From Salvelinus alpinus (lineage: Eukaryota; Chordata; Actinopteri; Salmoniformes; Salmonidae), in NCBI RefSeq assembly GCF_045679555.1, contig NC_092091.1:13973572-14037571 (forward strand): a stretch of 64,000 nt of DNA. The letters are read 5' to 3'. The notes below the pieces were generated by a model. The model saw only the letters and a list, made by a program, of their open reading frames with translations, had not been told where the DNA came from and made no database searches. Below, piece by piece: positions 47,301 to 50,300 of the stretch. The translations under genes were made by a program, and so were the position numbers. Within the stretch, counting starts at the first letter, position 1. Every line of letters starts with the position of its first letter.

Positions 47301-50300
47301 GTGCATCCCGAATGGGTGGAGGCAGCAAAATATGGACAGCTGTGATTTACAACCTGAGAGCAATATTTTTTTGACTACCAATAAATGTAATGGTGATTTG
47401 TATATCTATTTATTCTGCCAACAATGCCGTACTCTACATCATGGAATATTTTTGTCAAATAGAACCTATTTTTCAAACCTATTATGAAGTTGATTTTGTA
47501 GTATAAACTGGGTATTTGATATTTTTGGACTGATATTATGATTATCTGTTTGTTTCATATCTGCAAAGTAGTGAAGGCACTGTCAGTTCCACTTTAAGTA
47601 GTATAACAACGTGTCCGCCACCATCTTGTCTATCTCAAATCTTCTCATTGATTGAGACAGGTGGGTCCACTCCAAAGTGACGCATGTCATGATGACAATC
47701 ACCTGTCTCGATCAATGAGAGAAGATTTGAAATAGACAAGATGGCGGCATACACATTGTTGGATTACTTCATGGAGAATTTTCTAAATTCAAACCAAGTC
47801 CCTGCAACTAGACATGGACGTTTAGAAGACATTTGTTGTCTTCCATGTTGGGAATTGAGGAAGTATCGCCAAGTTAAGGTTGATAGAACATTATCTGTGC
47901 TACGCCAAACAGCACCTAACCTGTAACGGCTAATACAGCATCACATTAGCCCGGCACAATCTGTTAGCTAAGTAGAACCCAGTTCCCACCCAGTAAGTCA
48001 CCTGGCCTGGCTTCTGCTGAAGCTGCGGACTGATATAACTGTGCTGTCCAGAGAGGCAGTGGACTCTCCGATGGCCGTGCGGTACAGACTGTCCTCCTCT
48101 GTGTACGAATGCTTAGCGTTCAATGAACGCTGGGGACACAAAGAAGTAATAAACAAAAAATTGTAGTCATTCAGCAGACACTCTTATCCAGAGCGACTTA
48201 CAAGAGCAATTAGGGTTAATTGCCTTCCTCAAGGGCACATTGACAGATCTTTCAACTAGTCGGATCGGGGATTCAAACAAGTGACATTTCGGTTACTGGC
48301 CCAGTGCTCTTAACCACTAGGCTGCCTGCCGCCCGATACAACTCATAACTAATTTCTCAACATAAATGTACAGGCATACTACACTTAACTATGGACTGGA
48401 GTGTACTCACTGTGAGGAGAGTGGAGCGGGTGGCAGTAGGCTCCTCCACTATGGACTGGAGTGTACTCACTGTGAGGAGAGTGGAGCGGGTGGCATTAGG
48501 CTCCTCCACTATGGACTGGAGTGTACTCACTGTGAGGAGAGTGGAGCGGGTGGCAGTAGGCTCCTCCACTATGGACTGGAGTGTACTCACTGTGAGGAGA
48601 GTGGAGCGGGTGGCATTAGGCTCCTCCACTATGGACTGGAGTGTACTCACTGTGAGGAGAGTGGAGCGGGTGGCATTAGGCTCCTTCACTATGGACTGGA
48701 GTGTACTCACTGTGAGGAGAGTGGAGCGGGTGGCAGTAGGCTCCTCCACTATGGACTGGAGTGTACTCACTGTGAGGAGAGTGGAGCGGGTGGCAGTAGG
48801 GTCCTCCACTATGGACTGGAGTGTACTCACTGTGAGGAGAGTGGAGCGGGTGGCATTAGGCTCCTCCACTATGGACTGGAGTGTACTCACTGTGAGGAGA
48901 GTGGAGCGGGTGGCAGTAGGGTCCTCCACTATGGACTGGAGTGTACTCACTGTGAGGAGAGTGGAGCGGGTGGCATTAGGCTCCTCCACTATGGACTGGA
49001 GTGTACTCACTGTGAGGAGAGTGGAGCGGGTGGCAGTAGGTTCCTCCACTATGGACTGGAGTGTACTCACTGTGAGGAGAGTGGAGCGGGTGGCAGTAGG
49101 CTCCTCCACTATGGACTGGAGTGTACTCACTGTGAGGAGAGTGGAGCGGGTGGCAGTAGGCTCCTCCACTATGGACTGGAGTGTACTCACTGTGAGGAGA
49201 GTGGAGCGGGTGGCAGTAGGCTCCTCCACTATGGACTGGAGTGTACTCACTGTGAGGAGAGTGGAGCGGGTGGCAGTAGGCTCCTCCACTATGGACTGGA
49301 GTGTACTCACTGTGAGGAGAGTGGAGCGGGTGGCAGTAGGCTCCTCCACTATGGACTGGAGTGTACTCACTGTGAGGAGAGTGGAGCGGGTGGCAGTAGG
49401 GTCCTCCACTATGGACTGGAGTGTACTCACTGTGAGGAGAGTGGAGCGGGTGGCAGTAGGCTCTTCCACTATGGATTTCCTCCCTGTGAGGATGTTCTTT
49501 AGGTTGGTCCTCACCTCCTTGTTGAAAACACAGTGGAAGAAGAATATGCACACACCCTGAGAGAGAGAGAGAGAGAGAGAGAGAGAGAGAGAGAGAGAGA
49601 GAGAGAGAGAGAGAGAGAGAGAGAGAGAGAGAGAGAGAGAGAGAGAGAGAGAGAGAGAGAGAGAGAGAGAGAGAGAGAGAGAGAGAGAGAGATATGGATG
49701 GATAATTGCACATCAGATAAATATAACCACAGTAAGGCTTTTTGAAGCACTGTTTTTGACAAGCCAAAAAACCAAGTACCTGAAGGCAGTTGAAGATGGC
49801 GAAGAGGTAGTGTAAGGAGAGGATGTCACTGTTGACCGCCATGAGGCCCAGGAGCCAGGTAGCACTGAGGAGCAGCAGGAGGAGGAAGGCTACATGTAGG
49901 GAACAGCTGGAGAGGAAATGTTTGTTATGTTTGAATGGAATCCAGCCAACATGGTATGCTACGTGCTAACTATTTTCTAACCCTACATGGTTATCCTGTC
50001 TCGAAGTACTCACATTGCTCCAGACTTCTCAAATGTCCACTGTCTCTTTCCGCATGAGGCCTTGGCGGCCATGAAGAATAAAGCAATGTTGACCTATGGG
50101 AGATACATGAGATGGAGATGAATTACATAATCCACTGGCCAGAACCAATCCAGTATAGTCCAACAAATAAACAGCGTCTACATACACACTCACCAGTACT
50201 ACTATAGCGATGGGCCCAGCGATACTCCAGAAGAGTGTGTCGTGGACAGAAAGCCAACAGAAGTCTGGGTTCCCATAGCCCTCAGGGTCCAATCCTACTG

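Follow-up and report, generated by a model that had tools for sequence, protein, structure and literature searches.

Organization of the celsr1 locus

The stretch of DNA analysed here, referred to as the window, comprises 64,000 nucleotides of Salvelinus alpinus and forms part of contig C6 of a 2.37-Gb genome, with the comparison loci located on C9, C11 and C37 of the same genome. Its minus strand carries a gene whose joined seven-transmembrane (7TM) exons score 26.8 bits against Pfam 7tm_2 (cut-off 20.6) and match adhesion G protein-coupled receptors (GPCRs) in the PDB, while two open reading frames (ORFs) at 59309-59758 and 60874-61362, on the minus strand and nearer the 5' end of the gene, find their best match in CELSR1 (8vy2). 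One gene accordingly combines the 7TM region of an adhesion GPCR with extracellular modules of the CELSR type, and it is identified by these matches as celsr1 (ADGRC1). The choice of CELSR1 over CELSR2 or CELSR3 is probable, resting on the best matches and on the CELSR1-like tail sequence. The searched part of a 2026 review describes the C-terminus of C1, read here as ADGRC1, as variable in length and sequence, and the term "tandem repeat" was not found in that part (PMC13197933).

In the direction of transcription, the exon encoding TM6 and the start of TM7 (49780..49906, 127 nt), placed by Pfam 7tm_2 on the joined exons, is followed by the tail exon, which occupies 49431..49556 if it is ended at the first available donor (126 nt, phase 0); both have the same lengths in the copies on C9 and C11. 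The acceptor of the tail exon takes its pyrimidine tract from a (CT)67 microsatellite detected by Tandem Repeats Finder (TRF) at 49559..49692, and a long CT tract also lies directly before this acceptor in the other close copy (locus L003 of C9, 4448-4549). The next celsr1 exon (48002..48129, 128 nt) was placed by exon comparison. Between the repeat described below and this exon, the intron remainder, delimited by sequence reading (48130..48387), holds sequence resembling a salmonid tRNA-derived SINE.

A 60-bp array of splice donors

The 3' end of the tail exon and the beginning of the following intron are occupied by a tandem array, for which TRF reports a period of 60, 18.1 copies, 98% matches and 0 indels (48388-49475). 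A direct count in the window gives 18 full units on the minus strand, from 49475 to 48396, with unit starts at 49475, 49415 and so on to 48455, and then an 8-bp stub of a 19th unit, TCCATAGT, from 48395 to 48388. Each unit, corresponding to a 20-residue peptide, is composed of 45 exonic nucleotides, closing with CTCCTCACA, and 15 intronic nucleotides, continuing as GTGAGTACACTCCAG. The donor sequence CACA/GTGAGTAC is present in every unit (18/18), so that the first intronic bases of 18 donors (ACA/GTGAGT) recur at 60-bp steps from 49430 to 48410; donors 2-18 are identical to donor 1 over 12 nt and lie in a nearly identical context. Within the window, all 18 occurrences of CACAGTGAGTAC lie on the minus strand and none on the plus strand, and the occurrence of the array is far beyond chance. 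The two methods agree with each other and with the original prediction of an 18-copy, 60-bp array at this boundary, and its account of the anatomy, namely a phase 0 celsr1 tail exon after TM7 with an LLT/RSLN junction receiving n x 20 residues, is likewise upheld.

Single-copy relatives in the same genome

Used as the query of a DNA search, the array retrieved, among the matches listed, itself and a site on C9 with 84% identity over 68 bp, giving one full match in this one genome among those matches. The C9 tail exon (L003 4552-4677) is 126 nt long and has a single donor, ACA/GTATGT, and the beginning of its intron is homologous both to the intronic part of the array and to the sequence beyond the stub. 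Exon lengths are equal between the window and C9 for four exons (80, 127, 126 and 128 nt). The more distant paralogue on C11 also has a 126-nt exon (L026 4962-5087) with a single donor, ACT/GTACGT, and the 60-bp array is absent from the TRF listings of L003 (4 rows) and L026 (10 rows). In the fourth celsr-like copy, on C37, the expected exon site is covered by a run of N of exactly 2500 bases (L025 4001-6500). Since both readable relatives (2/2) have one donor, the array is confined to this copy among the copies that can be read, and the comparison indicates that the exon-intron boundary itself was the segment duplicated.

The window and C9 differ by dS 0.25 and dN 0.10 over four exons, or dS 0.20 and dN 0.09 over the first three. 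The units of the array differ on average at 1.03 of 60 positions (1.7%), with 37 of 153 pairs identical, which is far below the dS of 0.20-0.25 and therefore marks the array as young; measured in this way, its expansion, or its homogenisation, is recent relative to the gene duplication separating it from C9. As to its origin, AAGTCCATAG in the exon and CAGTCAATAC in the intron of C9 lie 60 bp apart, which is only suggestive of seeding by a pre-existing direct repeat: at offset 60 no exact run exceeds 4 and no 14-bp match exceeds 8/14, values unremarkable among 185 offsets from 15 to 199.

Variation among the units

Four of the 60 unit positions are variable, with 11 departures from the consensus (three E>D, five T>N, one E>K and two silent). 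The earlier statement that unit differences are mostly amino-acid changes needs correction, in that no excess is present: the distinct variants comprise three replacement and two silent types, where the unit offers 43 sites for replacement and 17 for silent change. An excess of amino-acid changes was consequently rejected as a sign of selection; the unit variants look neutral, with no sign of selection among them, and the events are few.

All four variable sites fall within the 45 exonic nucleotides and none in the 15 intronic ones. This placing has a chance of (45/60)^4, about 0.32, and therefore does not show that the intronic part is protected; with just four variable sites, the absence of damaged donor copies is also expected. 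These values bear on the idea that the number of units, and hence the mix of tail lengths, has been under selection, to which an in-frame unit, 18 intact donors of 18 and an intronic part of 15 nt free of variable sites would lend some colour. Set against it are the ordinary placing of those sites, variant types that fit neutrality and the absence of the array from C9 and C11, and such an adapted device is regarded as very improbable.

Units of the D, N, K and consensus types are interleaved with no fixed period, a pattern that would fit repeated gain and loss of blocks. Unit position 12 is A in unit 1, as in C9, and G in units 2-18; the shared G indicates that units 2-18 descend from one changed copy. 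Near-identical units are hard to count, and a single assembly is concerned, so a fault in the existence or copy number of the array was also considered. However, the array sits within a 101-Mb contig, the variant units are scattered through it with no regular period and the blocks flanking it left and right find their counterparts on C9 in the same order, which makes an assembly fault the most improbable of the explanations weighed. That copy number is polymorphic, as had been proposed, is plausible.

Reading frame and predicted splice products

A 60-nt unit, a phase 0 junction and the lack of a stop in the 15 intronic nucleotides together ensure that every copied donor yields an in-frame product. 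Joining each of the 18 donors to the exon at 48129 leaves the frame open and stop-free and adds 0-340 residues, and reading without splicing from the start of the tail exon reaches the first stop after 399 codons, beyond the array; the frame described in the original prediction is thus confirmed through all 18 units. The product exons range from 126 to 1146 nt and the matching introns from 1301 to 281 nt (donor 1 to donor 18).

As evidence of translation, the open frame was rejected, since three of the six frames run through the array without a stop (one on the minus strand and two on the plus strand) and, of the 180 single changes that the unit can undergo, 3 give a stop in the sense frame; it is weak evidence of function. 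Intact donors and an open frame are both found because one unit was copied. For the peptide encoded on the minus strand at 48370-49556, DUF592 reaches 28.6 bits (cut-off 24.5) in Pfam with no single stretch passing alone, and four further families lie at or below their cut-offs, again with no single stretch passing for any of them. These scores are read as a summing over repeats, not as domains.

Donor strength and comparison with known systems

The duplex energy with the 5' end of U1, a plain pairing energy distinct from a trained splice-site score, is -7.1 kcal/mol for the array donor, -3.2 for the C9 donor and -3.8 for the C11 donor. Each donor of the array thus pairs more stably than the one donor of either relative, which counts in favour of the explanation preferred below. 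Five donors of celsr1 in the window were tried (-6.9, -7.1, -7.2, -8.4 and -11.8), among which the array donor is the second weakest. The description of the repeated site as a consensus donor is therefore correct for its intronic side, where GTGAGT is perfect, but not for its exonic side, which reads ACA and not CAG, nor for its rank in U1 energy. The choice among like donors is subject to opposing tendencies: exon definition favours early donors, while proximity to the acceptor favours late ones, with an intron-proximal preference when sites are alike.

A donor minisatellite of this kind has reportedly been characterized in the human gene IFI6 (G1P3, 6-16) by Turri et al. in 1995, and its repeats comprise about 26 units of 12 nt. 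In the part of the IFI6 source consulted, two downstream units act as donors and three mRNA species result (PMC4526556). The celsr1 array resembles it in being a tandem repeat that starts at an exon-intron boundary and supplies several donors, with the donor motif in 18/18 units. It differs in its 60-nt unit, 45 nt of which are coding exon, and in its location in a receptor tail; furthermore, downstream units are used as donors in IFI6, whereas the additional donors of celsr1 are predicted from sequence. The IFI6 precedent favours early donors and a short ladder of products, although its donor choice may not carry over, since IFI6 units are much shorter.

In the human gene UBC, the available part of the report describes an RT-PCR ladder of isoforms in whole-unit steps, attributed to AGGT sites with dual specificity as donor and acceptor through which whole units are removed (PMC10809524). 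In UBC as in celsr1, a splice-site motif recurs at constant intervals within a repeat that preserves the frame, but the consensus unit of celsr1 contains 0 AGGT. Same-site splicing within the celsr1 array would remove 60m+1 nt and place TGA at the join, so that a UBC-type dual-specific array was rejected on both counts. The tract before the overlapping AG is 79% pyrimidine, as high a share as at the genuine acceptor of the next exon, and use of this AG as an acceptor would truncate the receptor. A second AG at unit position 59 (CTCCAG/TCC) would permit in-frame splicing within the array with removal of 15+60m nt; its tract is 58% pyrimidine, and its use as an acceptor is not expected. Intron gain by tandem genomic duplication, in which a duplicated exonic AGGT gives rise to a new intron according to the portion of the source consulted (PMC3443670), is comparable in that a tandem copy of a splice-site segment changes exon-intron structure, whereas in celsr1 an existing donor is multiplied and a new intron is unnecessary. 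Among the titles of open-licence papers on minisatellites, tandem repeats and splice donors, citations of IFI6 work were present but a celsr1 or salmonid donor array was not found, nor did a search for a celsr1 tandem repeat in salmon give a match in the open-licence literature.

Predicted donor usage and its significance

Judged by its sequence, the array in celsr1 is a genuine donor minisatellite, a type for which human genes already provide examples. Comparison with the single-copy relatives shows that it arose in one of two close copies by tandem duplication of a 60-bp stretch over the exon-intron boundary, which expanded as a minisatellite to 18 units, an expansion that the in-frame geometry demonstrated above would have allowed to be tolerated. 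Most probably, and as in human IFI6, splicing would start chiefly at donor 1 and at the one or two donors following it, where the exon stays short (126, 186 and 246 nt), with longer in-frame isoforms being rarer. The array is probably a tolerated by-product and not an adapted device. As a whole, this explanation, a tolerated donor minisatellite with IFI6-like early-donor use, is assigned a probability of roughly 0.5. Two observations count against its early-donor component, namely that the array donor is not strong relative to other donors of the gene and that acceptor proximity could favour donor 18, whose intron measures 281 nt versus 1301 nt. Also against the explanation, the tail exon compared with C9 (dS 0.15, dN 0.11) has a dN/dS of 0.75 on 14 differences, above the 0.45 of three exons.

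It is also possible, with less confidence, that donor 1 at 49430 is the sole donor used and the other 17 are silent, which would make the array an ordinary intronic minisatellite. Donor 1 yields the ancestral 126-nt exon, the units are without sign of coding constraint and the open frame is uninformative, all in keeping with this possibility, but donors 2-18 are identical over 12 nt in nearly the same context. Some downstream units are moreover used in IFI6, in the part of that source consulted (PMC4526556). The converse, in which splicing uses the final donor or others late in the array, so that up to 340 extra tail residues are present in most of the Celsr1 made from this copy, is unlikely: it draws on the identity of the donors, the short intron left by donor 18, the frame open throughout and the intron-proximal preference, whereas the exon would reach 1146 nt, long for an internal vertebrate exon, and no constraint is seen among the units.

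The original suggestion of a length-variable linker or a competing-donor device may still apply, but an open frame would be expected even in the absence of selection and the unit variants look neutral; for competing donors, IFI6 offers a measured precedent. A more elaborate version, in which competition among near-identical donors would produce graded Celsr1 tails with 0-340 extra residues and the copy number of the allele would set their distribution and tune a planar-cell-polarity receptor in this lineage of fish, is decidedly doubtful. If several donors are used, the locus would provide a natural experiment on how the spliceosome selects from as many as 18 similar 5' splice sites of a single exon that differ chiefly in position, the unit variants E/D/T/N/K serving as partial barcodes, and it would show how a conserved receptor tail can lengthen without a frame break. 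The size of the unit, the number of similar donors and the in-frame geometry suit it well as a test system.

Other repeats in the window

Several further repeats are present in the window. A tandem array with periods of 32, 71 and 103 at 35622-36117 is composed of sequence resembling the head of a tRNA-derived SINE (GTAGTCTAGTGGTTAGAGCG). At 28841-28960, four copies of a 30-bp unit separate two stretches that resemble exons of a fibronectin-type gene, and CCTACAG, an acceptor-like end, is present in every copy. Finally, a fibronectin-type-III-like ORF block recurs at intervals of about 3.3-3.6 kb across 354-11048 (ORFs 354, 3947, 7259 and 10572), by the look of it a recent tandem duplication.
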